The notes under the pieces were generated by a model. It had not been told where the DNA came from, did not search any database, and was given only the letters and a program-made list of their open reading frames with translations. Made by a program: the position numbers and the translations under genes. Positions 4,921 to 36,607 of a DNA stretch of 64,000 nucleotides are shown here, piece after piece. How positions within the stretch are numbered: position 1 is the stretch's first letter; every line of letters begins with the position of its first letter. The DNA is from Streptomyces turgidiscabies Car8 (lineage in GTDB: Bacteria; Actinomycetota; Actinomycetes; Streptomycetales; Streptomycetaceae), in assembly GCF_000331005.1 (NCBI RefSeq), contig NZ_AEJB01000361.1, positions 124,001 through 188,000 of the forward strand, given 5' to 3'.

Positions 4921-5781
4921 TCACACCGGTGCGGGTGGCGGGAAGTGCGTGGCGCGGAACTCGGCGAGGGTCTGCTCCACACCGGCGATGGTCAGACGCC
5001 AGAAATCCCAGCCGTCGATCTTGTTGCTGCCGGTCGCGGCCCTGGCGGCGGTGGTCGGGGTGCGCCAGGGGCGGCCCAGGACGTTGATCTGGCCCTCGTG
5101 GTTCAGGACCGCCTGGTGGACCTTCTTCTCGTGCCGGCCCGTGAAGGTGATGCCGGCCTTCAGGTCGTCCGGGTCCAGATGTTCCAGCAGGTCTTGCAGG
5201 TCGACTCGGGAGCGTTCCGGGTCGACGGTGGGTGTGGGCGTCGTTGCGGCCGGCGTGGGCGCGGCAGCGGGCCGGTCGCAGGCGCGCTGCAGGGCCAGGG
5301 CCATGGCGGCTGCTGAGCTGTATGGCGCCTTGGGCCCCACCTTGTCGTCGATCAGCTGCTGGATGGCGGGATCGTCCCCGTAGCGGGCGAGTACGGTGAC
5401 CGCCCGCATGAGGCGGCTGCGGAGCGGGACGAGGTGGGAGTCGTTGAGCGCGAGGATCCGTATGGTTTCGTCGGCGCGGCACAGGCCGCGTTTCGCTTCG
5501 GCCTGCGAGTAGGGGGTGCTGCTGCGCCGGGCGTAGCCGGCGCTGTCGAAGCCGAGCAGGTCGGGGTCGCTGTGGTGGGCTGGGAGCAGCGGCTGTTCGC
5601 GGTCCAGGTCATCGGCTGATGCGCGGGCGCGGGTACCGCCTATGACCGGGAACTGGCTGCCCTTGGCGCGGCCTTCCCGGACACCGTTGTAGCGGGCTCC
5701 GCCGCTGTTGCAGTGTCTGCAGGCGATGCCGTAGTTCGACACGTCGCAGGCCAGCCACCAGTGACCCGGGTGGCCGGGCAC
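4921..5781 (-). pseudogene. HNH nuclease fused to a RAMA domain, 5'-truncated
   Basis: The product would start in the middle of an HNH domain: WWLACDVSNYGIACRHCNS, then KGSQFPV, which resembles the second half of HNH nucleases where CxxC and an N/H supply metal ligands. The usual upstream half (first Cys pair and H-F-R-P motif) is missing; the sequence before the GTG at 5781 shows no match in any frame. The C-terminus (about residues 200-270) has G...FLGRPW-type and GWDFWRL features of RAMA domains, which accompany restriction and modification enzymes. It is probably a broken defence nuclease. It lies downstream of, and in the same direction as, the ATPase-nuclease at 5891-7474. Confidence 0.55.
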
Positions 5782-8169: not shown

Positions 8170-8307
8170 ATAAGTTCGTTCATGAAGTTCATCTCCCACA
8201 AGAGCTTCATGCCGTTCGTCTGGTACCGCATCGCCCTCGGTGTGGTGGTGATTGTGCTGGTCAGCATGGGTGTGCTCAGCCCGCACGCGGGCGAATCCGG
8301 CGGCTGA
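8170..8307 (+). pseudogene. C-terminal fragment of undecaprenyl-diphosphatase (UppP/BacA)
   Basis: The last 45 or so codons read SFMKFISHKSFMPFVWYRIA and a final membrane helix, the highly conserved end of UppP, the membrane phosphatase that recycles the undecaprenyl carrier and gives bacitracin resistance. All catalytic residues lie earlier in the protein and are absent, so this is a 3' relic left by recombination. Confidence 0.65.
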
Positions 8308-8460
8308 ACCAGGGCCGCACAGGCAGCGCTATCTAGCATTTCCTAGCGCCTGATTGCAGCACCACGCCATGATCATCTCCCACTTGTCTCCCACTCATCT
8401 CCCACCGGGGAAGACGGATACGCCCCACTAGGACGTGTGCGTCCGCAACGTTGGGGATGA

Positions 8461-8498
8461 CACGGAAGGGCCCGCACGTCCGTGCGGGCCCTTCCGTG
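8461..8498. terminator. Strong perfect hairpin
   Basis: An 18-bp perfect inverted repeat (CACGGAAGGGCCCGCACG and its complement) with a 2-base loop, just after the uppP relic. It has no T tract, which is usual for Streptomyces terminators. A CTCCCAC-rich stretch lies at 8384-8409 just before it. Confidence 0.6.
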
Positions 8499-8570
8499 CA
8501 GAGGGTGCGGGTCAGCTGAGGTTCATGTCCGGCCAAGGCCGCGACCCTCGCCACGCGGAAACGCCGCCGC

Positions 8571-9045
8571 TCATCCACCGTGTCCCAGGCAGCACCCGGT
8601 GAGGTCGTCCAGCGCCGCGGCCGTGAGGATAAGCCAGCCGAGGCGCGCTTCCATGTCCTCCCACGCGTGCGTCACCTCGACTGCCTCACCGTGCAGACCC
8701 GTGCCCCGTACACCGCGATGGCGACTTCCCCCATGTCCCCATTGATCGCGAGGACCTGGAGGAGCCGGATGCCCCCAGCCGCCGGTGATCCCATCCGGCG
8801 CGCGGCCCTGGAGCTGGTGCTCCACCACCGCCGCGCCGTCCCCGCTCACGGCATCCAGGGCAACCATGGCCGTCACGATGACGTCCGCGAACTCCTTCGG
8901 CACACCCCACGCGTGAGGCGCCCTTCCGCGGGTTGGCGCCGAGCGCGCCGTGAAGGGCCTCCGCGGCCTCGCCCAGCTCCTGACTGATCTTGAGCACGCG
9001 CACCGGCTCCGCCGCACGCCGCCCATCCCCGAAAGGCCCCTCCAC
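8571..9045 (-). pseudogene. MazG-like nucleotide pyrophosphohydrolase remnant, copy 1
   Basis: Fragments of one protein are scattered over three minus frames: VLKISQELGEAAEALHGALG (the MazG EExxE-like helix), then FADVIVTAMVALDAVSGD (the second metal-binding helix), and a tail VEVTHAWEDMEARLGWL. The same order occurs in the relic at 18034-18600. The first helix of the fold and the start are missing, and at least two frameshifts separate the pieces. Intact members hydrolyse nucleoside triphosphates or related alarmones. Confidence 0.6.
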
Positions 9046-9256
9046 CAGACCGACTCACGGACGCTCCTCGCCCGCCGTTCAGCCCACGAGATCTGCACCG
9101 TCCCTCGCTACCGCGCACGACGCCGTGGGCCGAGCCACACCCGATCGTGGCCCGAGGGCCGGCACACCGGGATATGACTGGACGACGAGGACATCGTCTG
9201 CGCTGAGCCCTGGCCGATCCTGCTCGACTCGCGGTGTACAAGGTCACACAACGCCA

Positions 9257-9469
9257 TCAATACTGAGCGGCGGTCTTCGCACAGCTCGCGGCGAGCCAGA
9301 TGTGGTGCCAAAAACGCAGCGGCGTCTCGCCATGGACATCTTCGAGTTCCGGTGGTGTCCCTGAGGAGACAATTTGCTTCCACCGGCCGGACGCGACAAC
9401 GACGCTGATCGCCGAAGCCCCGAGCAAGACACCGATGAGACCCGTCAATGCACCAGCCGGGACACGCAT
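9257..9469 (-). CDS. Small one-TM protein, uncertain
   Basis: A 70-codon frame from an ATG gives an N-terminal hydrophobic helix (LTGLIGVLLGASAISVVVA) followed by a polar tail. It looks like a membrane peptide, but it sits among pseudogenes, has no clear ribosome site, and its C-terminus may be truncated. Function unknown. Confidence 0.3.
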   Translation of the reverse strand: MRVPAGALTGLIGVLLGASAISVVVASGRWKQIVSSGTPPELEDVHGETPLRFWHHIWLAASCAKTAAQY

Positions 9470-9477
9470 CGGCCTCC

Positions 9478-9640
9478 GCCAAGACCCTTGATGGCCTCAC
9501 ACGAGTAGGCCCAGTGCCCGACGCGGAACAGCGGCGCGGGAGCGGTCAGTTCTTTCGCCACCAGTACCTCGATCACCTGGCCGTGCGTCAGGTCCGCCCG
9601 CGAATCCGGCGGCCGCAGCCCGTCAACGATCAGCGCATTT
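9478..9640 (-). pseudogene. N-terminal fragment of an IS1634/DUF4277-type transposase
   Basis: The minus strand encodes SRADLTHGQVIEVLVAKELT and then PLFRVGHWA, closely resembling the DUF4277 N-terminal domain of IS1634-like transposases (LTHGQVIEALVANRLT and VxxWA). About 50 codons remain; the DDE catalytic domain is absent. Confidence 0.55.
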
Positions 9641-9938
9641 GGGCCGCAGCGTGTGGGGGACGAGCCCCTGCGTGATCTTTTCCCTTGCCTGGCCCCTGGG
9701 GGCGCTGTGCTAGGGAAGACGGCGCGAGCACGGGGGACAGCACCATCCTGGTGGTGTGTGAGGTTCGACTGGATGACCGATCAGCAACGACCGAAACAGA
9801 TCCAACCCGCCACACCTCTGATCACTTTGAGTCAAGTAGGCAACTCTGCCCCTTCCGTATCAGATACTGCTCTGACTCTCGGTAGTCGCACGCGTATGCC
9901 GTCCCGGGAGCGGGGTTGGGGACGATGTCGGGAGTGAG

Positions 9939-11942
9939 ATGCAGCTGACGCATGCCGAAGTGATCAACTTTCGCGCCCTGGAGAGGGTGGACGTCCGAGT
10001 TGACCCGAAGGCCACTCTCATCGTTGGGCGCAACAACAGCGGCAAGACGTCGTTCGTCAATCTCTTCGAGAAGTTCTTCGGTGAGGAGGACACGAGGTTC
10101 GTCCTGGAGGACTTCTCCACCTGCCGTATCGCCGACATCGAACAGGCGCGGCAGATCTTCGGCGAGGCTCAGGCGCATGCCGGCCGTGGAGACTCCGAGA
10201 CGAGCGAGGACCTGCTGGCCAAGGCCTACGACCTCGTCCCGGCCATCCGCTTGGTCCTCACCATCGAGTACACGGAAGACGACGACCTCGCGCCGCTCAC
10301 GGGTGTGATCCTCGACCTGGACGACACCTGCTTCGAGGTCAAGATCGAAGCGGCGCTGGAGGTGGCCCGCCCGCACGACTTCCTCAAGGACTTCTGGTCG
10401 GCCAGCCAGCGGGAGCAGTTCGATCGCATCAAGTGGCTGCGCAAGAACTTCTCGGACTACTTCGCCCCGGCTTATCGCGCGGTCAGCGCCTTGAACGAGA
10501 GCGTCCGCAAGGAGATCAAGCGCGGCGCCGCCGAGGCCATCCTGTCGGTCAAGTTCGTCTACGCGCAGACCAAGATGGATGACACGCCGAGCGACAAAGC
10601 CCGCACGCTGTCGAAGACGTTCGAGGCCTACTACAAGGTCAACAGCGGCAACGAAGACCGTCACCAGAGCATCGAGCAGATCGAGACCGCTCTGGCGTCC
10701 GCCTCGCAGCAGCTCGACGACAACTACGCCACGCTGTTCGACCCGATCTTCGAGGACCTGCGCACCTTCGGAGTGGGCACCATCACCCCGGTCCAGAAGC
10801 CCCGCATCGTCTCCCTCATCGAGGCCTCAGGCATCCTGCGCGGCAGTACCCGCATCCAGTACCCGTCCGGGGATGACGACTTCCATCTTCCCGAAGGTCA
10901 CAACGGGCTGGGCTACAGCAAGCTGATCTTTACGATCCTGCAGGTCATCAGCTTTCACCAGACCTACGAGCGCACCACCCCCAAGCCGGCGCTGCAGGTG
11001 CTGTTCATCGAGGAACCCGAAGCCCATCTGCATCCCCAGATGCAGGAGACGTTCATCAAGAACATCCAGGACTTCATCGACCGTAAGACGGGCTGGAAGG
11101 TGCAGGTGGTCATCACCACTCACTCCTCCCACATCGTCGCCAGCAGCGGCTTCCACACGGTGCGCTACTTCGACCGTTCCGAGCCGCAGCTCACGGTCAA
11201 GGATCTCTCGACCTTCGAGGCCAACGTAAAGGCCACTCCGCAGGGTGACGAGACCCTGCGCTTCCTGCGCCAGTACATGGTCTTGCACCGGTGCGACATG
11301 TTCTTCGCCGACAAGGTGATCCTGATCGAGGGCACCGCGGAACGGCTGATCCTGCCGGAAATGGTCCGGCGGTGCGCCAAGGGGCTTCTGCACCAGTACG
11401 TATCGGTCATCGAAGTCGGCGACGCCTACGCCGTCCGCTTCCGGGAACTGCTCGCCTTCCTAAACGTCAAGACCCTCGTCATCACCGACATCGACTCCGT
11501 GTGCCCCAAGCACCGCAAGGCCTGCCCACCCGGCCAGGGGCCGACGGTCACCTCGAATGCGACGCTCAAGAACTGGCTGCCCGCAAAGTCCAGCATCGCC
11601 GAGCTGCTCGCCACCGACCCGGCCGACAAAGAGCAAGGACACGTCCGCGTCGCCTACCAGATCCCGGAGAAGGATTCGGGAGCCTGCGCGCGGAGCTTCG
11701 AGGACGCCTTCATCATCGCCAACGCAGAACCCCTCGTACGTGGCTTCCGCCAGCTCGTCCTGAAGGCGGCCTTCGTCAAGGAGGTCGGGGCCGACCCCAC
11801 CGCCGACGACATCGAAGCCAAGGCCTACGACATCGCACAGCAACTCAGTGACCACAAGACGGACTTCGCCTTCGACGTCATGCTCCTGGAGGACTGGGCC
11901 GTTCCCCGCTACATCGCCGAAGGACTGCAGTGGCTCGCCTAG
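9939..11942 (+). CDS. gajA: GajA-like OLD-family ATPase-TOPRIM nuclease (Gabija-type defence)
   Basis: A 667-residue OLD-family protein. The N-terminal ABC-type ATPase has Walker A GRNNSGKTS (Lys36) and the signature and Walker B region LFIEEPEAHLHPQ (Glu358-359). The C-terminal TOPRIM domain has ILIEGTAE (Glu464) and VITDID (Asp517, Asp519), the metal-binding set for DNA cleavage. The next gene, a UvrD-like helicase, overlaps it by 13 bases. Paired OLD nuclease and UvrD helicase is the Gabija anti-phage arrangement; this copy is longer than the roughly 580-residue prototype. GGGAGTGAG just before the ATG is a fair ribosome site. Confidence 0.82.
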   Translation: MQLTHAEVINFRALERVDVRVDPKATLIVGRNNSGKTSFVNLFEKFFGEEDTRFVLEDFSTCRIADIEQARQIFGEAQAHAGRGDSETSEDLLAKAYDLVPAIRLVLTIEYTEDDDLAPLTGVILDLDDTCFEVKIEAALEVARPHDFLKDFWSASQREQFDRIKWLRKNFSDYFAPAYRAVSALNESVRKEIKRGAAEAILSVKFVYAQTKMDDTPSDKARTLSKTFEAYYKVNSGNEDRHQSIEQIETALASASQQLDDNYATLFDPIFEDLRTFGVGTITPVQKPRIVSLIEASGILRGSTRIQYPSGDDDFHLPEGHNGLGYSKLIFTILQVISFHQTYERTTPKPALQVLFIEEPEAHLHPQMQETFIKNIQDFIDRKTGWKVQVVITTHSSHIVASSGFHTVRYFDRSEPQLTVKDLSTFEANVKATPQGDETLRFLRQYMVLHRCDMFFADKVILIEGTAERLILPEMVRRCAKGLLHQYVSVIEVGDAYAVRFRELLAFLNVKTLVITDIDSVCPKHRKACPPGQGPTVTSNATLKNWLPAKSSIAELLATDPADKEQGHVRVAYQIPEKDSGACARSFEDAFIIANAEPLVRGFRQLVLKAAFVKEVGADPTADDIEAKAYDIAQQLSDHKTDFAFDVMLLEDWAVPRYIAEGLQWLA

Positions 11943-13567
11943 ACACCCTCGAAGCCGTCACCACCGAGCTGGAAGCCCGACGCAGCTTCCTCGTCGAAGC
12001 AGGGGCCGGCGCCGGCAAGACGACCACCCTGGTACGCGCCCTGCAGCACCTCCTGACCCACCACCGCGTAGACCTGGAGGCACACGGCCGGCGGATCGCC
12101 TGCATCACCTACACCAACGTCGCCAAGAAAAAGATCGTCGAACGCATCGCCGCAGACCCGCTCGTCGACGTCGACACCATCCACGAATTCCTGTGGAGTG
12201 TCATCCAGCCCTACCAGTTTGAGCTCTGGCAGCAGATCCTCGACTACAACAAGGACCTGTCCAAACCGGAAGACCTTGATGATGTCACCGATCCTCCCGT
12301 CATCGAGTATTCCGACCGCGGGCGCAGGCTGCACGAGGGGCGCATCTCCCACGACGACGTCATCGCGCTGTCGCTCCGTCTCGTCACGGCCCACCCCAAG
12401 CTCATACGCATCATCACCAGCAAGTACCCGGTCATCTTTGTCGACGAGTACCAGGACACTTCGCCCAAGACGATCCAGCTGTTGCTGGACCACCTGGCCG
12501 GTGCAGGCCGCGAGAAATGCGTGGTCGGTCTCTTCGGCGACTCCATGCAGAAGATCTACGAGTCGGGCGTCGGCGCGGTAAAACGGCCCGGCCTTCTCAC
12601 CGAGATCACCAAGCACGAGAACTACCGGTGCTCGCCTCCGGTCGTCGAGGTGCTCAACCGGATGCGTCCCGAGCTCACCCAGGACGCCGTCGGCAAGCAG
12701 CAGACCGGCGAGGTCCACTTGTTCCTCAACAGCAGCGTCCCGGCCGGCCCTGCGCGACTCACCGCCGCCGAAGCAATACTCGCCCGGAACGGCTGGACAC
12801 GGGAGAACAGCAAATACCTGCTGCTCACCCACCGAGGGATAGCCGGCACCCTGGAGTACGCCAACCTCCTAGAGCAGTACCGAAAGCTGGGCCGCTACGG
12901 TCCCGACGACCTCATGGCACGCAACGAGCCGTACATCCAGTACCTCACCCGCATCGAGGCCATCAGCGCCGCGTTCCGCGACAACGACTTCGCCGGGCTG
13001 ACCGATCTGCTGGACGAGGGGCGGACACGGATCACCCGTCACGCCAACAAACGCGCCATCAGTGACGCGATCCGTGCACTCGACGCCGTACGCAGCACCG
13101 GCACCATCGGTGAGGTGCTCGATCTGATGGCCGACGGCCATCTCCTCGCCCAGCCGGGAAAACTCAAGGATCTGGAACGCCGGAGATCCGCAACGGACCT
13201 GGACGAACGCGACCAGCGACGGGCGGACTTCTCCAACAACCTCCGCACCGTGTCCTACCGTGAAGTCATCAGCGTCACCCACTTCATCGACGAACTCACC
13301 CCGTTCTCAACCCAGCACGGCGTCAAGGGTGACGAATTCGAGAACGTCGTAGTGGTGGTCGACGACCGCGCCTGGAACAGGTACAGCATCAGCAAAATGC
13401 TCGCCGGCACCGACAAGCCCGACCGTACCGAACGGTCACGCAACCTGTTCTACGTCTGCTGCTCGCGAGCCCAGCGTGGCCTGGCCGTGGTGTTCATCGA
13501 CGATCTCCCGGACGGAGCAGAGCCCACACTCCACACCTGGTTCTCTTCAGGCACCATCCACCCGTGA
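11930..13567 (+). CDS. gajB: GajB-like UvrD/Rep-type helicase (Gabija-type defence)
   Basis: A 545-residue superfamily 1A helicase. Motif I is EAGAGAGKTTT (Lys30), motif II VDEYQDT (Asp172-Glu173), a GDSMQKIY motif III region and ENYRC follow, then VKGDEFENVVVV (motif V) and FYVCCSRAQRGLAVVF (motif VI). It starts inside the 3' end of the OLD-family gene (ATG at 11930), so expression is coupled. In Gabija, the helicase-like partner forms a complex with the nuclease and helps sense phage DNA state or nucleotide loss; that role is by family analogy. Confidence 0.82.
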   Translation: MARLDTLEAVTTELEARRSFLVEAGAGAGKTTTLVRALQHLLTHHRVDLEAHGRRIACITYTNVAKKKIVERIAADPLVDVDTIHEFLWSVIQPYQFELWQQILDYNKDLSKPEDLDDVTDPPVIEYSDRGRRLHEGRISHDDVIALSLRLVTAHPKLIRIITSKYPVIFVDEYQDTSPKTIQLLLDHLAGAGREKCVVGLFGDSMQKIYESGVGAVKRPGLLTEITKHENYRCSPPVVEVLNRMRPELTQDAVGKQQTGEVHLFLNSSVPAGPARLTAAEAILARNGWTRENSKYLLLTHRGIAGTLEYANLLEQYRKLGRYGPDDLMARNEPYIQYLTRIEAISAAFRDNDFAGLTDLLDEGRTRITRHANKRAISDAIRALDAVRSTGTIGEVLDLMADGHLLAQPGKLKDLERRRSATDLDERDQRRADFSNNLRTVSYREVISVTHFIDELTPFSTQHGVKGDEFENVVVVVDDRAWNRYSISKMLAGTDKPDRTERSRNLFYVCCSRAQRGLAVVFIDDLPDGAEPTLHTWFSSGTIHP

Positions 13568-13816
13568 AATACGTACCACGCAGAGCAGTTACGCATCCCG
13601 GACTCCGGGACGTGCAGCGCAGACCAGCTACTACCAGTGGGCACATTCGCCCTTATGTCGCAGGTAAGCAGCCGCACGCCAGCTCCGGGTCTGCACACTG
13701 TTGCTGCGCTGTGTGAGGACCGCGTGGGGATGCCGGGCGGCAAGTAACTTCCCGAAAACTTACCGGACTTGACGATCGTGTTCGGGCAGGTCAAGCCGGG
13801 GCTTCTGCTGCTGTGA

Positions 13817-14643
13817 TCATGCTGCCAAGGCGAGGTTGTGCATGTGGGCGACGGCCTGGACCGCATGGTGGAGGCCGTCGCCGCTGCGCTGGCGGCAGTC
13901 ACGCAGGATCTTGCAGTTCTTCATCCGGGCGACGGCATGCTCGACGCGGGCACGGACCCGACGGTGCTCGGCGTTGTCTTCCTCCTCACCCGCGGGGAGT
14001 GGCCGGCCGGGCCGTTTTCGGTGCGGGGCGACCAGGCCTGTGTTGATGTAGGCGCCGTCGCCCAGCACCGTGACGCCGTCGCAGTGCTGGGCAAGACCGG
14101 AGTTCCGCCAGACCTGGGCATCGGCCCGGTTGCCCGGGCCAGGCAAGCGGCGGGCACGACCAGCCTGGTGCCAGCATTGATGATGACCTGCACATTTGCC
14201 GAGAACCGGTAGTTGCGGCTCGAGGCGCCGATCTTCCGGTCGCGGACCGGGATCAAGGTGCCGTCCACGATCCACAGCCGGTCCGTAGTGTCGGCGGGCC
14301 GGGAGATGGGCTCAAGGGCGAGGAGGGGCCGCAGCCGCTGGATGACCCGGCACACCGTCGCCGGCGAGACAGCGAACAGCGGCGCGAGCTGTCGCACGGT
14401 CAGGTTGGTGCGGTAGTAGACCGCCACCAGCAGCACCCGATCTGCCAACGGCAGGCGCCACGGCCGCCCGCCGCCAGGACCGCTGCCGCCCCGTTCCCGC
14501 ACCACCCGTAACAAGCCTTCGAACTGCCGCATCCGCAGGCCCGTGAACGTCTCGACCCACAACGGATCGGATGTCTGGCCTGATGGGCACAGGGGCGGAG
14601 CCGTGTCGTCAGGCGATCTTTGCACCGAGAGCAAAGTGGGCAC
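13817..14643 (-). mobile_element. IS5-family transposase, frameshifted
   Basis: From a GTG at 14643 the minus strand encodes a transposase with an N-terminal helical domain (MRQFEGLLRVVRERGG), then the DDE parts: IVDGTLIPVRDR (first Asp), VLGDGAYINTGL (second Asp) and RARVEHAVARMKN (Glu). The first Asp and the rest lie in different frames; the switch is between about 14130 and 14170. A programmed frameshift is possible in some IS5 groups, but usually before the catalytic domain, so a disabling mutation is more likely. Terminal inverted repeats were not identified. Confidence 0.75.
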
Positions 14644-14738
14644 GTCATGAGCGGAATATTTTGAGGTATGTTTCTGCGTATACTGCGCTGGGTTGTATGG
14701 TGGTGGCACGCTGACGAGCCTGAGCGCGGGAGGTGGGT

Positions 14739-15863
14739 GTGGTCGTGGATGACATTGTCGACTTGGTGGCGCAGCCCGCCATGTTGACGCTGGCCCGTGA
14801 GTCGCGTGGTTGGACGCAGGCTGACGTAGCACGGGAAATGACATGCCGTGCGGCCGACGACACGGTGTCGCAGGGGTATGTCAGCCGAGCCGAAGCCGGT
14901 CGCCTGGCAGTGAGGGGCGAGCGTCTCGCCCTGTTCGCCGCAGCTCTCAGGTACACGCCCCAGATGCTATGCCGCGCCACTGACAGTGGCGGGACGGGCG
15001 TTGGTCTCGTTCACCACCGGAAGCGAGCGTCCATGGGCGCGCTGGCACTGCGGCGTGTGCACGCGACCTTGGCAGTTACCCGTCTCCAGGTGGATGCCCT
15101 GACGGCAGCGGGTCACGAAGACGACAAGCATGCGTTCAGGCACATCGCGGTGAACGACTTTGATACGCCGGCTGATGCCGCGGAGTCGCTGCGGTTGGAG
15201 TGGGGGCTCCCGCAGGGCCCTGTCTCCAATGTGGTAGAGGTGCTCGAAGCCGCCGGCGCTCTGCTCGTGATCCGCGATCTCGAAACTCGTGAGCTGGATG
15301 CCGTGAGCCAGTGGCCGCACAGTGAACGCCCGCTCGTCCTGCTCAACTCGACTGCCCCTGCGGACCGTTATCGTTTCAGCCTGGCGCACGAACTCGGGCA
15401 CATCGTGATGCACACTGAGCCTGGGGACGGACGCTTGCAGGAACAGCAAGCCGATGAATTCGCAGCCGAATTTCTCATGCCGCACGAGAGCATCGTGGCC
15501 GAACTTCGGCCGCGCGTGGACTTGGCGCGGTTGATGGAACTGAAGCGTCGGTGGAGGGTCTCGATGGCAGCGCTCGCCCGCCGAGCCAAATCACTCGGCG
15601 TCCTCACCGAGTGGCAGTACCGCTCGCTCATGGTGGAGATGTCCGCCCTGGGCTACCGAACCACCGAACCCGCTACGTTCGAGCTCGAGACCCCGCGTCG
15701 CCTTGCCGAGGTCGTGACCCGACTGAGGCAACAGCACAACCTCGACCTGTCCCAGGCAGCCCACCTAGCCGGTCTGGAACTCGAGGAGTTCACCGAGATC
15801 TACTCGTGTCCTTCCTCCGCCCCGGTGACCACACGGCCACCGGATTCACCAACAAGTAGGTGA
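14739..15863 (+). CDS. XRE-type HTH and ImmA/IrrE metallopeptidase fusion
   Basis: A roughly 374-residue protein. The N-terminus is an XRE helix-turn-helix (LARESRGWTQADVAREM, then SQGYVSRAEAGR). The C-terminal half is an ImmA/IrrE zinc peptidase with FSLAHELGHIVMH (HExxH near residue 218) and QADEFAAEFLMP carrying the third ligand. Such fusions cleave or sense a partner repressor and control mobile elements, toxins or stress genes. GGGAGG at 14728-14733 favours GTG 14739 (14733 and 14745 are alternatives). Its stop overlaps the next gene, implying a two-gene unit. Confidence 0.82.
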   Translation: MVVDDIVDLVAQPAMLTLARESRGWTQADVAREMTCRAADDTVSQGYVSRAEAGRLAVRGERLALFAAALRYTPQMLCRATDSGGTGVGLVHHRKRASMGALALRRVHATLAVTRLQVDALTAAGHEDDKHAFRHIAVNDFDTPADAAESLRLEWGLPQGPVSNVVEVLEAAGALLVIRDLETRELDAVSQWPHSERPLVLLNSTAPADRYRFSLAHELGHIVMHTEPGDGRLQEQQADEFAAEFLMPHESIVAELRPRVDLARLMELKRRWRVSMAALARRAKSLGVLTEWQYRSLMVEMSALGYRTTEPATFELETPRRLAEVVTRLRQQHNLDLSQAAHLAGLELEEFTEIYSCPSSAPVTTRPPDSPTSR

Positions 15864-17023
15864 CAATGGCAAACTCGCCGTTCCCCGGCCGCACCCCCGC
15901 CCTGCGGGTCCTCGATGCGTCGGTACCGGCCACGCCGCTACTCCAGGGGCGTGTACTGCTGCATGAGAACGCCCGCTTCGTACCGCAGATGCGGACTCCG
16001 CTCGACGATGACCTCGGCGGCGTCGTCATGAGCGGGGAGAAGGCGGGTGAACGCGCCTACCAGCTCCGAACCTCCGGCTACACAGGCGCCCTGCTGATCG
16101 ACACTGCGGCCTACAAGACGCACACCGCGACAGCCGATGAACCCTTTCTGCTGGATGGCAACGAGCTGTTCGACACGGTCGACACCTCGCTTGAGCTGCA
16201 GAAGGCCCGCGGTGCCAGCGCCTCTCTCACACCGACTGGATACATTCCCCCGGGAGCCTCCAGGGCGCTCAAGGCGGTCATGCGCCAGTCCGAACGCCTC
16301 GAGCGGGCAGACACAATCGTCAACCTCCCGATCGACATCGCCTGGCTCACCGATGAATTCCTCAGCCAGCTGATCGCAGTCTGCAAGCGCATCCCGCAAC
16401 CGAAGGCCTTGACCCTGTTCCGGCAGTTCGATCCGATGGAGCAGGCCAAGAGTGTTCCCGCCAACCTGCGCCGCGTCGTAGCCGAGCTACCTGATGTCGC
16501 CCTCCTGCGGACTGATCTGGCCGCACTGGACGTACTCGCCCACGGCGGGCTGTTTGCCGGTATCGGCGCCGACAGCGCCAGTCGGCACAGCATTCCCCCT
16601 GGCGAGCGGGCGTTGTTCAACCCCAACGGTGGTGGACCCCAATATCCGTCAGTGCTGATGCCGAGCCTGATGTGCTTCAAGGGCACTCAGTCACTTGCCC
16701 GCCTGTACGCCAATCACCCGCCAGCAACCTGCAGCTGCGACGTCTGTGACGGTCGAGGCCTGGACCGATTCAACGATCCGGGCGGCGAAGCGCGGCGCGA
16801 GTCGGAAGACCACAACATCAGCACCTGGAGCGCCTGGGTCATCGAGATCACCAGCAGGAAGCCCGGGATAGAGCGCAAAGGGTGGTGGCGCGACAAGTGT
16901 GCCGCAGCCGTCGCGCACTACGCCCTGGAAAACCAGCGTCTGGGACTGTCGGCAAATTCGAAGGCGGGCTTTGCAGTCCCTGACCCGCTGGAGGCCTGGG
17001 CAACGCTGCCGATCACGCCCTGA
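15860..17023 (+). CDS. Unknown protein with possible TGT-like fold, partner of ImmA/IrrE
   Basis: A 387-residue protein starting at GTG 15860 (overlapping the upstream TGA) or ATG 15866. It has no membrane segments. A compact Cys cluster (TCSCDVCDGRGLDRF, about residue 290) and a preceding GIGADSASRH...PPGERA stretch faintly recall tRNA-guanine transglycosylase-like barrels, whose zinc site is CxCxxC. I hold this as a weak suggestion. Tight coupling to the XRE-ImmA/IrrE protein and the convergent 207-residue gene suggests a small regulated module, possibly defence or nucleic-acid modification. Confidence 0.7.
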   Translation: MTMANSPFPGRTPALRVLDASVPATPLLQGRVLLHENARFVPQMRTPLDDDLGGVVMSGEKAGERAYQLRTSGYTGALLIDTAAYKTHTATADEPFLLDGNELFDTVDTSLELQKARGASASLTPTGYIPPGASRALKAVMRQSERLERADTIVNLPIDIAWLTDEFLSQLIAVCKRIPQPKALTLFRQFDPMEQAKSVPANLRRVVAELPDVALLRTDLAALDVLAHGGLFAGIGADSASRHSIPPGERALFNPNGGGPQYPSVLMPSLMCFKGTQSLARLYANHPPATCSCDVCDGRGLDRFNDPGGEARRESEDHNISTWSAWVIEITSRKPGIERKGWWRDKCAAAVAHYALENQRLGLSANSKAGFAVPDPLEAWATLPITP

Positions 17024-17029
17024 GGCGGC

Positions 17030-17653
17030 TCACCGAGCCAAGAGCTGCTTATACGCCTCTTCCACGAACCTCCAGCCGGCCACAGTGTGCCGACGCCGAA
17101 CGAAGGGGCGAGGCGGGACAACGACCTCAACGTCATTGCTGGTCGCGACGAGTAGCCCAATGCCGTAGAACTCTGCCTCCATCACGGCGTCATCTCGACG
17201 CCGCAGAGGCCGGTCGATCAAGACAGCCCGCGCGCAGAAAGGTGTGAACCATTCGGCTTTTTCCTTAGCGGAGGCCCAGCCCTTACCCGGGACGACGGCA
17301 AGATCGACTCGGATGGGGTGGGTTGCTTCGCGGACGACGACGTTGTCATGCCGGGTAACCGTTCCCCTAGGCATCCGCCTCAGCACGCGTCGCTCTGTGT
17401 CGCTCAGCGAAGTGACCGGTACAGGCTCGCCCAGTGGAAGGTTCATCAGCAGGTCCAGCGCCCGAGGATTGGTGAGCTCCAGCGTGCCGACGCGAGCACG
17501 TCGCTCGATCTCGTCCTCGTTTTCGCTGTATGCAACTACGGCATCGATACCAAACATGTTCAACACGCCAATATCTGCACCCTGAGGGAACAGAGTGCCA
17601 GGCGCCGCCGCTCCGGAGATCGCTTCCGCCGGACCTCGCGCCGCCACAGCCAT
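17030..17653 (-). CDS. Conserved-looking hypothetical protein, convergent to the ImmA module
   Basis: A 207-residue soluble protein starting at ATG 17653. It has an acidic, helix-rich middle (SENEDEIERRARVGTLELTN) and a basic C-terminus (FVRRRHTVAGWRFVEEAYKQ). No family was recognised. Only 6 bases separate its stop from that of the previous gene. The palindrome CCTACCGGTAGG at 17711-17722 lies about 60 bases upstream of its start and may be its operator. Confidence 0.65.
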   Translation of the reverse strand: MAVAARGPAEAISGAAAPGTLFPQGADIGVLNMFGIDAVVAYSENEDEIERRARVGTLELTNPRALDLLMNLPLGEPVPVTSLSDTERRVLRRMPRGTVTRHDNVVVREATHPIRVDLAVVPGKGWASAKEKAEWFTPFCARAVLIDRPLRRRDDAVMEAEFYGIGLLVATSNDVEVVVPPRPFVRRRHTVAGWRFVEEAYKQLLAR

Positions 17654-18033
17654 GTTGCTACCTCTGCCCTCGCCTCAAGGAGGCTCGCCCTTCACAGACG
17701 ACCGCCTACTTACCTACCGGTAGGAAACCTTTCACGGAATGGTCTGAACGCGCCAGCACTGCAGGCCGCGGCTGCCACTACCCACGACGACCACGCCGCC
17801 TACCAGGCACAACTGAGACACTGCTGCCCGGGTCACGGGCACGAGCCCCTGTCTTCAGATCAGGCTAGTGCTGCCACACCTGCCCCGTCGCAGGAGCGAC
17901 AGCGATGACCCTAGTGCGAGCCCTCGGCACTCCACAACGGTCGTCTTGCCATGCAATCCAAACGTTTCCCGCTCTTGATCGATCATACGGAATGCTCGCC
18001 CCAAGTCGTTCAAGACCCGCGCACTGATACGAA
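17654..18033. other. Intergenic region with a palindrome
   Basis: No convincing gene in about 380 bp. It holds the upstream region of the minus-strand gene ending at 17030, including the 12-bp palindrome at 17711, and the 3' side of the second MazG-like relic. Confidence 0.5.
17711..17722. promoter_or_regulatory. CCTACCGGTAGG palindrome
   Basis: A perfect 12-bp palindrome about 60 bp upstream of the gene starting at 17653. A related CTACCGGTAG occurs at about 20567, so it may be a binding site for a dimeric regulator or a chance GC-rich palindrome. Confidence 0.3.
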
Positions 18034-18600
18034 GATCCGCTCTAGGCCGCGACCCTCGCCACGAGGGAAACGCAGCCGGTCATCCAACGTGTCCCAGGCA
18101 TCGCCGGTGAGGTCGTCCAGCACGGCGGCGGCCGTGAGGACGAGCCGGCCGAGGCGCGCTTCCACGTCCTCCCACGTGTGTGTCACCTCGGTCGCCTCGC
18201 CCCGCGGGCCATGCCCAGCGCCCCGTACACGGCGGTGGCGACCTGCCTCATGTCCCCGCTGATCGCGAGGACCTGGACGATACCCCCGGCCGCTGCCGGC
18301 TCGTCCACCGTGCGGTCCTGGAGCTGCTGCTTCACCACAGCCGCGGCGTCCCCGCTGACCGTGTCCAGCGCGATCATGGCCGTCACGATGACGTCCGCGC
18401 TCCTTCGCCACGTCCCCCCACCCGTGTGACGCGCCCTTCCTCGGGTTCGCGCCGAGCACGCCGTGCAGGGCCTCCGCCCCCAGCTCCTCGCTGATCTTGA
18501 GCACTCGCAGGAGCCGGGCGTCTTCCAGCGTCGTCGGCGCCGCGTCCGTGTCGAGCCACTTCCGCAGCAGCGTCACGTAGTCCCAGGTGTCAACCTTCAT
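18034..18600 (-). pseudogene. MazG-like nucleotide pyrophosphohydrolase remnant, copy 2
   Basis: A good start (ATG 18600 after GAGGAGG) opens with MKVDTWDYVTLLRKWLD and LRVLKISEELG, the first MazG helices. The frame then slips: the metal-binding helix VTAMIALDTVSGDAA is in a second frame, and the tail EVTHTWEDVEARLGRLVLT is back in the first. Compared with copy 1 (8571-9045), this one keeps its N-terminus. Both have a second helical domain after the MazG part, so they descend from the same two-part gene. Confidence 0.65.
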
Positions 18601-18632
18601 GCCGTCCTCCTCGGGCGGTTCCTGCATCAGGG

Positions 18633-19232
18633 TCAGAACAGCGCCGGCGCCGAGTGCTCCACGGCGGCCGGGTCGGTCACGTCCAGGGGCGCCGTGGCAT
18701 TGAGCGCCAGGGCGACCGTCAGGGCGGAGTGGTCCGTGAGCAGCCGGTCCTCGTCGGTGCGCGGCTCGTGCACGTACCGGGAACCCGTCACGTGGCGCGT
18801 GAAAGGCCCGGAGACGTGGGCGTGGTCGTAGCGGTAGCCGTCGCCGGTACGCCCCACCCAGGAATACTCCAGGGCGTCCGGGGCCAGGAGGCGGAAGGCG
18901 TCCCGGTACCCGGCCGTGGCGAGCCCGGTATAGAACTCGTACCCCCAGGCCTGGAAGGTCCGGTATCGCGGGACGTGGGTGGACTCCAGGATGTTGAAGC
19001 CCCCGAGGACCAGGCGGTGGCCAGCCTTCCCGGTGGGGAGCGCGGCGGCCAGGCCCTCCAGGAACGTGCGCTTCCTGGTGACCTTCGCCTCCGTCTGATC
19101 GCGGGACGGTACGTACACCCCGACGACCTCCAGGGGCCCCGTGTCGGTCTCCACGGTCACGGCGGCCACCCGGTGCGGGAGGTAGTCCACCGGCAGCGGG
19201 AGCGGGCTTGTGGCGAGGCGGGACACGATCAT
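18633..19232 (-). pseudogene. EEP-family nuclease/phosphatase, N-terminally truncated
   Basis: About 199 residues match the second half of endonuclease/exonuclease/phosphatase proteins: VVGVYVPSRD, RLVLGGFNILE (normally GDFN), YRYDHAHVSG and the terminal LTDHSAL with the catalytic Asp-His. The first half, with the metal-binding Glu, is missing; the frame begins at MIVSR where similar proteins are in mid-fold, and Gly replaces Asp in GDFN. It abuts the broken hemC gene. Likely inactive. Confidence 0.6.
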
Positions 19233-19387
19233 CGCGCCCCCTCCCGGGTGCCGTGCGGCGGCCGGGGACGTCCGCGTACGGCTCCGCGACGAGCAGAAAG
19301 TTCCGATCGTCGCCTACTCGACCTACGGGGAGTGGGCCGCGCTCCAGGCCCTCGGCACGGCCGGAATGGTCGAGTACCTGGCGAGTC

Positions 19388-20219
19388 CGCGCCGAGCTGG
19401 CCGCGCTCCACCCGGACGTGCAGACGACGGTGCTTCCCGTGAAGACGACCGGCGAAGGTGGAGGGGAAAGGCGCCTTCACGAAGGAGGTTGACGCCGCGC
19501 TCCTGGCCGGTGACGCCGATCTCGCGGTGCACTGTGTGAAGGACGTCCCCGCGGACCGGCCGCTCCTGGCCGGGGCCGTGTTCGCCGCCTTCCTCAAGCG
19601 CGACGACATCCGGGACGCCCTCATCCACCCCGGCGGCGTCACCCTTGACGAGCTCCCGGCCGGCACGCGGATCGGCACCTCCTCCGTCCGCAAGATCGCC
19701 CAGCTCCCCGTATACCACCCGCACCTGGAGTGCGTCCCGATGCGCGGTAACGCGAACCGCCGCCTGGAGAAGCTGGGCGCCGGCGAAGCAGACGGGCTCA
19801 TCCTGGCCGTCGCTGGCCTGGAGCGGATCGGCCGGCGCGAACGGAGACCCTGGCCACCGACGTGATGATGCCGCCCATCGGCGCCGGAGTCCTCGCGCTC
19901 CAGTGTCGCCAGCACGACACGGAGCTGATCGACCTCGTCAGCGGGCTCGGCGACCGCGACGCCTACCGGGAGACCGAGGCGGAGCGCATGTTCCTCCACG
20001 TCCTCCAGGGGCACTGCGACTCCCCCATCGCCGGGTACGCCCAGGTTGAGCGCGGCGGGGAGCTCTCGCTCCGCGCCACGGTGTTCTCCCCGGACGGGAA
20101 GGTCATGATCTACGCCCACGAGTGGGCGGGCCGCCTGGACCCGGCCACGCTCGGCACCTCCGTGGCCGTCTCCCTTCTTCGTCAGCGCCCGCGAGTTGAT
20201 CGACGGCATCCCGTATTGA
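19388..20219 (+). pseudogene. hemC: Broken hydroxymethylbilane synthase gene (hemC)
   Basis: Three frames together give a porphobilinogen deaminase: [20 protein letters not shown], then [49 protein letters not shown] and [16 protein letters not shown], then [16 protein letters not shown] and the cofactor-cysteine-like [14 protein letters not shown], ending in ELIDGIPY. A small deletion plus frameshift lies near 19460, another near 19850 and a third near 20185. The first residues are absent. It is a decayed extra copy and not the essential chromosomal gene. Confidence 0.75.
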
Positions 20220-20361
20220 GCCCTCCGCGAGGGCGTAGCGGCGAGCCTCGCCTGCCCGTCCGCGCCCTCGCCGGGACCTCCCTGCCGAGGAGTCGGCCGA
20301 GTTACGTCATCGGGGGCGGAGCTCGGCGGCCGTTGTCGGTGCGGGCCCGTACGATTTGTCC

Positions 20362-20535
20362 ATGTCCTCCCCCTCCAGGCCTCACGGTCGGCTGCAGCCT
20401 GCTGCTGCGCGGATCAACACGGCGATCCGACGACTCATGGAGGAGCCCAACACACCCCGGCGCGCGGTGGAGTACCAACGGCTCCTGGTCGAGTGGGAGA
20501 AAGCCACCCGGGCCGATATGGTCAAGGCGGCGTAG
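20362..20535 (+). CDS. Small hypothetical protein (57 aa)
   Basis: ATG 20362 opens a compact basic/helical peptide ([20 protein letters not shown] ... [20 protein letters not shown]). The composition, regular helical heptads and resemblance to small Streptomyces proteins of this length suggest a real gene, although a ribosome site is not obvious. Function unknown. Confidence 0.5.
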
Positions 20536-20667
20536 CGCACGAGCACCCCGCCGACTGGGCGGGTCCTACCGGTAGTTCGTTAACCCCGCCGGTAGCTGTG
20601 GGTTGACGGCTGGGTGGTTCGGCCGCAAAGCGGTGGGTACGAGTCAACTGCCGTGCTGGGGGCTGAA

Positions 20668-24806: not shown

Positions 24807-26996
24807 ATGGCCACCGACAAGCCGAATCGGAGTCCCAAGAAGGGGACGACGAAGGACCAGCCGAGCACGTCGGTGAGTCAGGGGATGCCCCGGCAAGGTC
24901 GCGGGACCAAGAGCCTCGGCCCTGAGGAGGGCATCGAGAAGCCTCCCGAGGGCAAGGCCAGCGTGCCCAAGCAGCTCCCGGCCCCGGGAGCTGCTTCTTC
25001 TGGTCCTTCTGGCGCGGCAAACACTGCGCCGAAGATGCCGGACGCGGCAGACACCGCAGAAACCGCAGGCAAGGCAGCCGGTGCCGCGAATGCTGGGTCG
25101 AAGATCAAGCAGGGCATGAACGGCGTTGCCGGGAACATGGCCGGAGGCGCGGCCCAGAAGGCGATCGAGGGAGACGGCAGCAGCGCGACCCGCCGTAACG
25201 CCGGGCGTTACGCGGGAGCTGCCGTCTCCGGTGCCGTGGCCGGCGCACAGGCTGGCGGGCTTCCGGGAGCTGCCGTTGGCGCAGCGAAGAACGTCGGCGT
25301 CGAAGGGGCCCAGGACGCCGTCAAGGGCGTGTCCAAGGTCACCGGTGGCAGCCCGGACGCCAAGCCGGCCGACCAGCGCATGCTGGGTGCCGGCGGCACG
25401 GGCTACGAGCACGGTGCACCGAAGGACGACGAGGGCCTGGGCTCGAAGGCAGCCAAGGGCGTCGCCGTCGGCGGTGGCGCGGCTGCTGTTCCGCCGGCCA
25501 TGGGTGTGGTCATGGCCATGGCCTTCCTGAACTGGCTCAAGTCCATGTTCTTCGCCGCCATGGCGATGGCCGTCAACGCCGGGAAGCTGCTGTGGACGCT
25601 CATCGTCAGCATTGTCAAGGCGGTTGGTCATGCGATCGCTGCGCCGTTCATGGCGATCGGCAGCTTTATAGCCAAGGGGGCCGGCGCGGTCCTGGGCGTC
25701 ACTGTCACGGCGACGATGGCCCCTGTAGCGGCAGCGATGTCGGGTGCGGTCGCGATGACCGCCACCGTGGCCCTGTTGGGCACGGTCTTGACCGGCCTCC
25801 TCAACTCGACGGCGCTGACCGAAGGCAGCATCAATACGAACGGGACGGCGTGCGTCGTCAACGCGGGTAGCGTCGGCAACGGTTCCGGGGCCACCGTCCC
25901 GGCGGACGTGGAGAAGAACGCCAAGGAGATCTACTCGGTACTCAGCAGCTGGGGGATGCCGAAGGAGAACATCGCGGGCATCCTCGGCAACTGGTCGCAG
26001 GAGTCTGGGATCGACCCGACGAGCGTGCAGAACTTCCCCTCGGGGACGTATGCCATGACCGCCGAGAAGGCCAGCGCCGCACAGAACACGGACAACGGCA
26101 TCGGTCTCGGGCAGTGGACGTTCGGCCGCAACACGTTGCTGCGCCAGTACGCGAAGAGCAAGGGCGTCGACTGGTTCACGATCAAGGCCCAGCTGGCCTT
26201 CATGGTCGATGGTGACAACCCCGGCGATGTCACGGTCTTCAAGGACATGCTCAAGACGTCGCAGGGCTCGCCGCGTACGGCGGCGCTGCACTTCCACGAG
26301 AACTGGGAGCGCTCCACTGACGGCGCGGCCGGGCTCACCGCACGAGGCGACAACGCCGAGATGTGGTTCGGCAAGATGAGCGGCTGGTCGGTCGACAGCT
26401 CGATCGTGGGCGACGTCAAGGACATCGTCGGCGGGATCATCGAGAACATCGTCAACGGCATCAACACGATCCTGGGCAACTGCACCTCCAACGGCGGCAG
26501 TTCCGTCTCGCTGAAGGACGGCGGGATGACCCAGGAAGAGGCTCAGGCCCTCGTCGACCTCTTCAACAAGGAGGGTGACAAGTTCCTCGACGACCGCTAC
26601 GGCGACCAGGGTGGTCCCGGCTCGTGCGGGAGCAATCACGCTGAGAACTGCGTCTCGTTCTCGACCTACTTCGTGAACAAGTACACGACGTTCCAGACCT
26701 ACCCGGCGGGTGACGGCAAGGAGACGGCGTACACGATCGCGGGGGAGACCGGCAAGCAGTTGTCTTCGACTCCGACGGCGTATTCGGTGGGTTCCGGCCC
26801 GGGCTCCGGTCCTGCCGGCCACACCCTCATGGTGCTCGGCGTCCAGGGCGACAAGGTCATCCTCGGCGAGGCCGGCTACTGCGCCTTCATGGGCCGAATC
26901 CGTGTCGACAGCGCGGCGCGGATGGCGGCCGAGGGCTGGAAGTTCGTGGACATGTCGGATTCGATGCTCCCCTCCGGCAAGATCAAGACGGTCTGA
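24807..26996 (+). CDS. Membrane protein with tail-lysozyme-like and CHAP domains
   Basis: A 729-residue protein. An Ala/Gly/Pro-rich first 200 residues is followed by hydrophobic segments (about 230-335). Then comes a phage tail-lysozyme-like domain (about 367-530: ILGNWSQESGIDP, GIGLGQWTFGR) and a C-terminal CHAP-type domain with Cys in NCVSFSTYF and His in GHTLMVLG (about 605-729). Two wall-cutting activities on one membrane-anchored chain match the muralytic component of Gram-positive conjugation machines (CwlT/TcpG type). The multiple hydrophobic segments may also give it a VirB6-like channel role. Confidence 0.82.
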   Translation: MATDKPNRSPKKGTTKDQPSTSVSQGMPRQGRGTKSLGPEEGIEKPPEGKASVPKQLPAPGAASSGPSGAANTAPKMPDAADTAETAGKAAGAANAGSKIKQGMNGVAGNMAGGAAQKAIEGDGSSATRRNAGRYAGAAVSGAVAGAQAGGLPGAAVGAAKNVGVEGAQDAVKGVSKVTGGSPDAKPADQRMLGAGGTGYEHGAPKDDEGLGSKAAKGVAVGGGAAAVPPAMGVVMAMAFLNWLKSMFFAAMAMAVNAGKLLWTLIVSIVKAVGHAIAAPFMAIGSFIAKGAGAVLGVTVTATMAPVAAAMSGAVAMTATVALLGTVLTGLLNSTALTEGSINTNGTACVVNAGSVGNGSGATVPADVEKNAKEIYSVLSSWGMPKENIAGILGNWSQESGIDPTSVQNFPSGTYAMTAEKASAAQNTDNGIGLGQWTFGRNTLLRQYAKSKGVDWFTIKAQLAFMVDGDNPGDVTVFKDMLKTSQGSPRTAALHFHENWERSTDGAAGLTARGDNAEMWFGKMSGWSVDSSIVGDVKDIVGGIIENIVNGINTILGNCTSNGGSSVSLKDGGMTQEEAQALVDLFNKEGDKFLDDRYGDQGGPGSCGSNHAENCVSFSTYFVNKYTTFQTYPAGDGKETAYTIAGETGKQLSSTPTAYSVGSGPGSGPAGHTLMVLGVQGDKVILGEAGYCAFMGRIRVDSAARMAAEGWKFVDMSDSMLPSGKIKTV

Positions 26997-35957: not shown

Positions 35958-36317
35958 ATGTCTGCACGTCGCGTAGCCGCACTCGCAGCCACCGCGGCCG
36001 CCGTCGCCCTGCCGCTGCTGTCCGCCCCGGCGGCCACCGCCGCGCCGCAGTCGGTCGCCACCACGGTGCCCGCCTCGTCCTGCACCACCAACCCCTACCT
36101 TCCGTGGGCGGTGCACGGCACCAGCGCGGTGACCATCCGCTCGAAGGCGACCACCAAGTCGACCGCGGTCGGGGTCCTCTACAAGTCGCACAAGTTCACG
36201 GTGCACAAGACCACCAAGGGCGCGACCTGGGTGTACATCACCGACAAGAACACCAAGAAGACGGGCTGGGTCTCCGGCAAGTACGTCTACCGCGACGTGC
36301 GCATGTGCCTGGACTGA
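35958..36317 (+). CDS. Secreted SH3b-like protein 2
   Basis: A 119-residue protein with signal peptide (RRVAALAATAAAVALPLLSA, cleavage near ATAAP) and an SH3b-like domain (SAVTIRSKATTKSTAVGVLY ... KTGWVSGKYVYRD), again with two Cys. ATGGAGG at 35944 places the start at ATG 35958. It is a divergent neighbour of SH3 protein 1; the two probably arose by duplication or are functionally paired. Confidence 0.75.
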   Translation: MSARRVAALAATAAAVALPLLSAPAATAAPQSVATTVPASSCTTNPYLPWAVHGTSAVTIRSKATTKSTAVGVLYKSHKFTVHKTTKGATWVYITDKNTKKTGWVSGKYVYRDVRMCLD

Positions 36318-36478
36318 GGCACCGCCTCACTTCCGTGCCCCGGGCCGCCCGGCCCGGGGCACCTCCGCCTGGCCTGCCCCCTCGGCGCCGCGCTTCCACT
36401 CCAGCCCTCACCCCAGTCCGGCAGGGTTCCGCGAGTCCGAATACGGCGGGTGAGCGACCCGCGACCAGTGCATGGAAC

Positions 36479-36510
36479 GAAAGGCCCCGGAGTCCACTCC
36501 GGGGCCTTTC
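36479..36510 (+). terminator. Perfect 15-bp hairpin
   Basis: GAAAGGCCCCGGAGT and its complement with a 2-base loop. It separates the SH3 genes from the Clp-like gene and promoter box E. Confidence 0.75.
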
Positions 36511-36517
36511 GCATTCT

Positions 36518-36556
36518 CCATTCAATGCCCTATCGAATGCTACCGTGATAGGATTT
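36518..36556 (+). promoter_or_regulatory. Promoter/operator box E
   Basis: CCATTCAATGCCCT (36518-36531) runs into CCCTATCGAATG (36528-36539), followed by GATAGGATTT at 36547. The 14-base first part is repeated exactly, in reverse, in box K at 56048-56061. Confidence 0.65.
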
Positions 36557-36607
36557 CGACTGATTTTTCAGTTAAATCTTCAGTCCAGTCGAGAGGTCTT
36601 GCGCGGC

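Follow-up and report, generated by a model that had tools for sequence, protein, structure and literature searches.

A probable Gabija defence system in Streptomyces turgidiscabies Car8

The genome of Streptomyces turgidiscabies Car8 (10.8 Mb) carries, in a stretch of 64,000 nucleotides (contig NZ_AEJB01000361.1, positions 124,001 to 188,000; hereafter the window, whose numbering is used throughout), two overlapping genes that very probably form a complete Gabija system. The first, gajA, encodes an OLD-family nuclease and the second, gajB, a partner with a superfamily 1 (SF1) helicase fold. Both genes are open, overlapping, co-inherited and under purifying selection. The pair is an ordinary, intact addition to the known Gabija system, and its surroundings fit a mobile cassette close to a conjugative element better than the remnant of a larger ruin.

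The gajA-gajB gene pair

The layout of the pair is as follows.

9939-11942, + strand: gajA, ATG start, 667 amino acids (aa), class 2 OLD-family nuclease (ABC ATPase and TOPRIM)
11930-13567, + strand: gajB, GTG start, 545 aa, UvrD/PcrA-like SF1 helicase-fold partner
11930-11942, + strand: gajA/gajB overlap, 13 bases, constant among relatives

Pfam places AAA_15 at residues 1-400 and OLD-like_TOPRIM at residues 455-519 of GajA, and UvrD-helicase on GajB. The active-site residues of GajA are K36, E358 and H395, together with E464, G494, D517, D519 and K640 of the TOPRIM part; Walker A and EEPE motifs are also present. In GajB, the SF1 motifs begin at residues 25 (GAGAGKT), 172 (DEYQD), 463 (HGVKG) and 508 (YVCCSRA). 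An earlier reading of the sequence alone had described the nuclease and helicase motifs as complete, and the Pfam matches and motif residues bear this out, for the ATPase and TOPRIM motifs of GajA as well as for the SF1 motifs of GajB. D517 and D519, which the same reading had singled out, form the DID motif of TOPRIM; with E464 and K640 they are invariant among 28 aligned GajA sequences whose identity to that of the window goes down to 29%, and G494 is nearly so.

The overlap, of 13 bases as first read, is a likely site of translational coupling. Ratios of nonsynonymous to synonymous substitution rates (dN/dS) were computed against 9 of 15 near relatives for GajA and 7 for GajB. Against seven Streptomyces relatives (L005-L009, L013, L019), they range from 0.085 to 0.109 for GajA and from 0.144 to 0.243 for GajB. 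Two further comparisons gave 0.172 (L014) and 0.159 (L018) for GajA; GajB was skipped in these two because of a 3-base indel. These low values argue that both proteins are being kept, and the constant overlap together with dN/dS well under 1 in nine comparisons shows that the pair is beyond chance. No second match to the window's GajA was found in its own genome at E<=1e-60.

Profile matches and predicted structures

The PADLOC search suggested by the sequence-only reading called both genes as Gabija. The GajA model PDLC00063 matches residues 1-667 of GajA with 700 bits, and the GajB model PDLC00113 residues 4-544 of GajB with 529 bits. Among the best 25 of the 154 models that match GajA, those for other proteins reach at most 153 bits (AriA) and 100 bits (Old), and among the best 25 of 54 on GajB the best model of another name is RTasHel, at 88 bits. 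PARIS, retron and Septu identities were rejected, as their hidden Markov model (HMM) scores are lower than those of Gabija. The retron effector model NF038234 gave 47 bits on GajA against a cut-off of 250; no search with a model of its own was made for a neighbouring reverse transcriptase.

The TOPRIM part also agrees with that of studied systems. In the Bacillus cereus protein, BcGajA, the TOPRIM site consists of E379, G409, D432 and D434, according to PMC10781630; the spacing of E464, G494, D517 and D519 in the window's GajA is the same. Class 2 OLD proteins have an extra helical segment that makes their TOPRIM part about 50 aa longer than in class 1 (PMC10568477). Such a segment is present here, as judged by length and secondary structure: 150 residues, helical in the model, follow D517, as compared with 146 after D432 in the 578-aa BcGajA and about 98 after the DID motif in TsOLD, the last figure being extrapolated from an alignment. 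Class 1 OLD nucleases are encoded by a single gene with no helicase partner, whereas here a helicase gene overlaps gajA by 13 bases.

The AlphaFold2 model of GajA (28-row alignment, mean predicted local distance difference test score, pLDDT, 83.6) was compared with solved structures in two ways. In Foldseek, ranks 1-4 are B. cereus GajA (best E 6.7e-21, TM-score by query 0.47-0.50) and rank 5 is TsOLD. In VIA-align, five GajA entries come on top, the best being 8x5i_D with a Z of 21.1, 508 aligned residues and a root-mean-square deviation (rmsd) of 6.3, while retron Eco8 reaches 16.9, TsOLD 16.6 and PtuA 16.4. The predicted GajA fold is thus nearest to solved GajA. The GajB model (mean pLDDT 86.9) resembles UvrD/PcrA at least as much as it does solved GajB. 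In PMC10681800, B. cereus GajB (BcGajB) is itself reported to be closest to E. coli UvrD by Dali; there it is described as having no GIG motif, gating helix or separation pin and no detectable unwinding. No GIG string was found in the window's GajB sequence.

Relatives of the pair and extent of the cassette

A pattern scan of 84,980 species genomes yielded 45 loci with a GajA relative. In 44 of them, spread over several phyla, GajB adjoins GajA; in the remaining locus (L031), GajA is broken. The two genes share exactly 13 bases at 16 of the 18 Streptomyces loci and in Thermomonospora (L030), and the two Streptomyces exceptions, L021 and L031, are broken pairs. Within the 15 near relatives (L005-L019), a full GajA open frame is found in 14, L017 being devoid of the N-terminal part. 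Relatives of the window's GajA occur in 11 of 295 sampled Streptomyces genomes at E<=1e-60, its own genome included; two of these are distant matches, at 35-37% identity, and a third is a fragment of 114 residues. HMM scores, the predicted GajA fold, the active-site residues, pairing across phyla and selection all support a Gabija-type pair, as initially proposed.

Mobile carriage of GajA relatives is usual. They were found in 106 plasmid records, 59 covering at least 80% of GajA and 68 typed conjugative; these counts refer to the nuclease gene alone. In addition, 22 viral contigs contain a relative, with a GajB-profile match next door in 12.

The limits of the unit that moves were sought by comparing window positions 1-32000 with the 15 close Streptomyces loci by blastn. 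In eleven of the 15, the match starts at about 9776-9823 and stops at about 13527-13711, and the DNA around it is unlike that of the window; one of them (L007) has an extra 300-base match at 73%, and another (L012) has only about 200 bases of left flank. Hence, these relatives share little beyond a cassette of about 3.75 kb, and the pair travels as a unit. Three loci (L005, L006, L019) share the flanks over 8178-18045 with gaps, L006 only from 8944, near its contig end, and in L017 the match begins inside gajA. Outside the two genes, the cassette comprises two stretches.

9779-9938, + strand: upstream region co-moving with the pair, presumed promoter and leader
13568-13711, + strand: downstream cassette tail kept in some relatives (match to 13711 in L008 and to 13690 in L017)

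Ungapped identity at -120 to -40 relative to gajA is 90-100% in L007 and 80-93% in L008, L009, L011 and L013, and is lost past about -160. L010, L014, L015, L016 and L018 are out of register in this ungapped count; blastn aligns them from 9778-9823. As the 120-160 bp in front of gajA belong to the co-moving stretch, the pair moves with its presumed promoter.

Phylogenetic placement

In a 66-row tree of GajA and OLD proteins (quick IQ-TREE, SH-aLRT supports), the window's GajA lies inside a 46-row clade with a support of 92. A UvrD-like gene adjoins 45 of these 46 rows; the 46th (L100) stops at its contig end. The tree took 30 of the 45 genome loci. Of 27 PF20469 loci, 11 with no GajA-profile match were kept out, as was the window's own copy among them, and L195-L197 were kept out as occupying the same places as L174, L169 and L172. 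Labels of rows as having no UvrD rest on flanks of 1.5 kb for most, and one such row (L192) later proved paired (L210). As the rows of this tree and of the helicase trees include no experimentally studied GajA or GajB, the place of the pair among GajA/GajB by tree holds in part, to the extent that the family is defined by pairing.

A second set of OLD-UvrD pairs (L167, L104, L220-L224) forms a separate clade in a reduced GajA tree, for which 17 rows of the first set, 7 of the second and 5 lone ones were picked by hand. The helicases are less clear-cut. In a 48-row helicase tree, branches are long and deep forks weak; the 15-row second set does not form one clade, and further pairs (such as L225, L226 and L103) fall elsewhere with weak support. 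A reduced helicase tree was built without 8 rows of the 15-row second set, without the two AdnAB-like rows and without 6 near copies. Each of the reduced trees has three clades, so neither the sister order of the lineages nor a single origin of GajB across the two lineages follows from them.

The C-terminal fragments of XccOLD and BpOLD, class 2 OLD proteins of Xanthomonas and Burkholderia, give 176 and 162 bits with L222 and 89 and 90 bits with L167, both of the second set, versus 18 and 20 bits with the window's GajA. Likewise, BcGajA gives 51-66 bits with two second-set members versus about 21 with the window. The long 667-aa GajA belongs, by these sequence comparisons, to a lineage apart from the second OLD-helicase set. 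As XccOLD, BpOLD and BcGajA all score low with the window, no class 2 OLD of solved structure was found close to its lineage; sequence and profile searches of the PDB also found no structure close to the window's GajA.

Conjugative element and flanking DNA

Downstream of the pair, several genes indicate a conjugative element.

24807-26996: Phage_lysozyme2 protein, downstream of the pair
32177-34465: MobL relaxase, E 1.5e-118
41863-45909: type IV secretion system (T4SS) coupling protein, downstream of the pair

The stretch that starts at about 21.9 kb is common to nine other Streptomyces at 87-95% identity, and was traced to about 25-26 kb, where the compared pieces end. No GajA relative was found in these nine at E<=1e-60; hence, pair and element are not tightly bound. 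Among 100 predicted open reading frames (ORFs) from nine relatives of the element, 34 PADLOC models matched at E<=1e-10; the best 25 of these included kinase-type PD-T4-6, mad2 with 3 members, mad6, MkoA, C3a189 and PrimPol, with otherwise one member each. Most were taken as generic domains, so these matches do not show that defence genes gather in a hotspot at the element's left end. Within the window, an AAA protein (36104-39517) contains LAGLIDADG_3 (residues 730-808), which separates the first AAA region from the second and is possibly an intein or homing insert.

Closer to the pair, broken and intact genes alternate.

4921-5781: PtuB-like ORF, RAMA domain present, 411 bits with one model of PADLOC
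13817-14844, - strand: dead IS5-type transposase in two overlapping frames (13921-14844 and 13817-14275)
14733-15863, + strand: RmrA-like helix-turn-helix and M78 peptidase protein (antitoxin-like), PADLOC RmrA 226 bits
15860-17023, + strand: 387-aa protein of no known family, no Pfam match
17030-17653, - strand: 207-aa protein of no known family, convergent, no Pfam match

The sequence-only reading had described decay on both sides of the pair, with an insertion sequence (IS) directly downstream, and had taken the whole as a defence island whose useful part was kept. Decay does occur: the PtuB-like ORF lacks about its first 85 residues (PADLOC profile positions 86-390 of 391), the transposase runs in two frames, and hemC (porphobilinogen deaminase) is split into two overlapping frames at 19458-20575. 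On the other hand, the three genes at 14733-17653 are all open. The 566-aa AAA protein that neighbours the PtuB-like ORF has no PtuA match in PADLOC and Pfam scans, and the broken hemC lies mostly inside a segment (18045-20362) that is absent from L005, L006 and L019 save for a 75-base piece. A direct repeat (8528-9002 and 18036-18509, 79.6% identical) flanks the block made of the Gabija pair and the three open genes; the ORFs there gave no significant Pfam match. As for the IS element, a remnant of IS5 type (Pfam HTH_Tnp_4 and DDE_Tnp_4; NCBIfam IS5 below cut-off) does lie about 250 bp past gajB. It is dead. Elsewhere in the genome there is no full copy of it, just two short matches (34 and 46 bases), and none of the 20 inverted pairs listed makes a convincing terminal repeat. 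Its transposase is more broken still in L005, L006 and L019, and as it is common to these three relatives the dead IS is old. Together with the cassette being shared by 11 of 15 relatives in unlike surroundings and the open RmrA-like trio, this leaves the idea of a salvaged defence island not well supported.

Relatives of the trio occur across Streptomycetaceae. The 387-aa gene was found in 24 of 297 genomes of that family. Among its 27 loci, two of which overlap, 24 have the 207-aa gene as a neighbour and 14 have an RmrA match beside it. No relatives of the 387-aa protein were found in viral contigs scanned with two patterns. In 21 aligned sequences, the protein has an invariant CxCxxC...H (C291, C293, C296, H318), which we take to be a motif of tRNA-guanine transglycosylases; that identity is not supported, with an hhalign probability of 0.5% (narrow 4-row alignment), no Pfam match and no PDB match beyond chance. 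The trio is possibly a variant of RosmerTA (PMC10440598) with an undescribed effector.

Alternative explanations

Several scores weigh against the Gabija assignment. By sequence, TsOLD (39.9 bits) exceeds BcGajA (about 21 bits) in similarity to the window's GajA, and the GajA profile also places BcGajA (73.6 bits) below TsOLD (82.4 bits). The GajB profile scores UvrD1 at 84.7 and PcrA at 80.2 bits versus 68.0 for solved GajB, and a single-sequence search gives 44.2 bits for UvrD and 28.1 for GajB. At the level of folds, the weaker GajA entries in VIA, whose Z goes down to 16.2, are level with Eco8 and TsOLD and also with SMC-type ATPase heads (Z 17.7, 265 aligned), which match the ATPase part alone. 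For the GajB model, Foldseek ranks 1-27 are UvrD, PcrA, Rep, AdnAB and RecBCD, with GajB first at 28; in VIA, DrUvrD reaches a Z of 27.8 (361 aligned, rmsd 4.2) versus 19.2 for the GajB chain 8sm3_B (319 aligned, rmsd 7.4), a comparison blurred by domain orientation and by the short GajB chains. Finally, a consensus scan of the upstream region gave no sigma-70-like site (0.6 expected by chance, other promoter types not being covered). The UvrD/PcrA leaning of GajB and the rank of TsOLD above BcGajA would suit a lone class 1 OLD nuclease that adjoins a DNA-repair helicase by chance. That explanation is barely credible. Pairing in 44 of 45 relatives, which come from several phyla, already refutes it for the most part, and it was rejected on this ground, on the constant 13-base overlap and on the top fold matches of GajA, which are GajA; the stretch past the DID motif also speaks against it, since its roughly 150 residues are close to the number in BcGajA (146) and exceed the 98 or so extrapolated for TsOLD.

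If the two genes do encode a working Gabija enzyme, its main targets might still be competing plasmids or conjugative elements rather than phages, the pair being a weapon of the neighbouring mobile element. The MobL relaxase, T4SS coupling protein and Phage_lysozyme2 protein downstream fit such a role, as do the 68 conjugative plasmids among 106 records and the position of the Gabija system of Pseudomonas aeruginosa PA14, which is likewise on a conjugative island according to a preprint (PMC12407980). However, the cassette is found in other Streptomyces without these flanks, the stretch at about 21.9-25 kb occurs in nine sampled Streptomyces with no GajA relative at E<=1e-60, and phages are the target of studied Gabija systems; we therefore hold this to be unlikely. 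Less likely again is that the pair is cryptic cargo, intact but unexpressed, and about to decay as the genes around it have done. The DNA nearby contains broken genes and a dead transposase, the pairs of L031 and L021 are broken and L017 has lost the N-terminal part of GajA, and the promoter scan described above was empty within its scope. Against this, dN/dS is low, 14 of the 15 near relatives keep a full GajA frame, and the 120-160 bp upstream are also kept in the nearer relatives. A complete Gabija system is the reading that we retain.

Proposed mechanism and host context

By analogy with studied Gabija systems, the pair would protect its host from phages, and both proteins would be needed. 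GajA may oligomerise and bind GajB; GajB would hydrolyse nucleoside triphosphates on meeting DNA ends or unusual replication intermediates, and the TOPRIM site of GajA (E464, D517, D519, with two metal ions) would then cut the invading DNA. GajA could be restrained either by nucleotides, as in the B. cereus work, or on self DNA ends by a host end-processing enzyme, as in the P. aeruginosa work. In the latter (preprint PMC12407980), Gabija is proposed to recognise linear DNA ends that are not occupied by RecBCD, which would thereby mark self DNA, and AdnAB is mentioned as a widespread analogue.

Two adjacent SF1 helicase proteins of about 1190 residues are encoded on contig C656 of the S. turgidiscabies genome, in which no RecC match was found. 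We infer that they are AdnAB-like, no library model having given that name; such a pair would take the role of RecBCD in this host. Streptomyces chromosomes are linear and protein-capped. With no RecC found and such a chromosome, how Gabija spares its host can be asked directly here, which makes the window's pair a useful test bed for self-sparing. A broader reading would join these observations: pairs of an OLD nuclease with UvrD would form at least two deep lineages, that of the window being the one for which no solved structure was found; GajB there would have stayed UvrD/PcrA-like in its body, or would have been recruited separately with such a body, and in contrast to BcGajB it may unwind DNA or translocate along it; and with an AdnAB-type host and a linear chromosome, the rule that tells self from foreign DNA ends would be one not yet described. 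Taken as a whole, this reading is doubtful. What is added is one more Gabija, in Streptomyces, of modest interest for its unstudied lineage, its UvrD-like GajB and its host. No study of Gabija in Streptomyces stood out in searches of an open-access library.

Comparison with known systems

The Gabija system of B. cereus VD045 (PDB 8sm3, 8jq9, 8u7i) is like the window's in gene order, domain order, TOPRIM residues and their spacing, and has the closest GajA fold. The two differ in that the window's GajA has 667 aa instead of 578, with about 85 extra residues before the TOPRIM glutamate, and is alike by only about 21 bits, and in that the 545-aa GajB is nearer to UvrD/PcrA in fold and profile. 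In P. aeruginosa PA14, according to the preprint (PMC12407980), an intact gajA-gajB pair also lies on or near a conjugative element and both genes are needed, the likeness being one of description and not of compared sequences. RecBCD is present in that host, and Gabija is proposed there to be licensed where DNA ends are free of it; the window's genome, in contrast, has no RecC match.

The class 2 OLD proteins XccOLD (6njv) and BpOLD (6nk8) share with the window, by definition of the class, an OLD TOPRIM beside a UvrD-like helicase; they score well with second-set pairs and poorly with the window's GajA. Finally, TsOLD (6p74), the retron Eco8 OLD, PARIS AriA and Septu PtuA resemble GajA in their ABC ATPase and, in part, TOPRIM. 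Unlike GajA, they have either no helicase partner or another partner, and lower HMM scores; for TsOLD, Eco8 and PtuA, the best VIA Z also falls short of the 21.1 reached by solved GajA.

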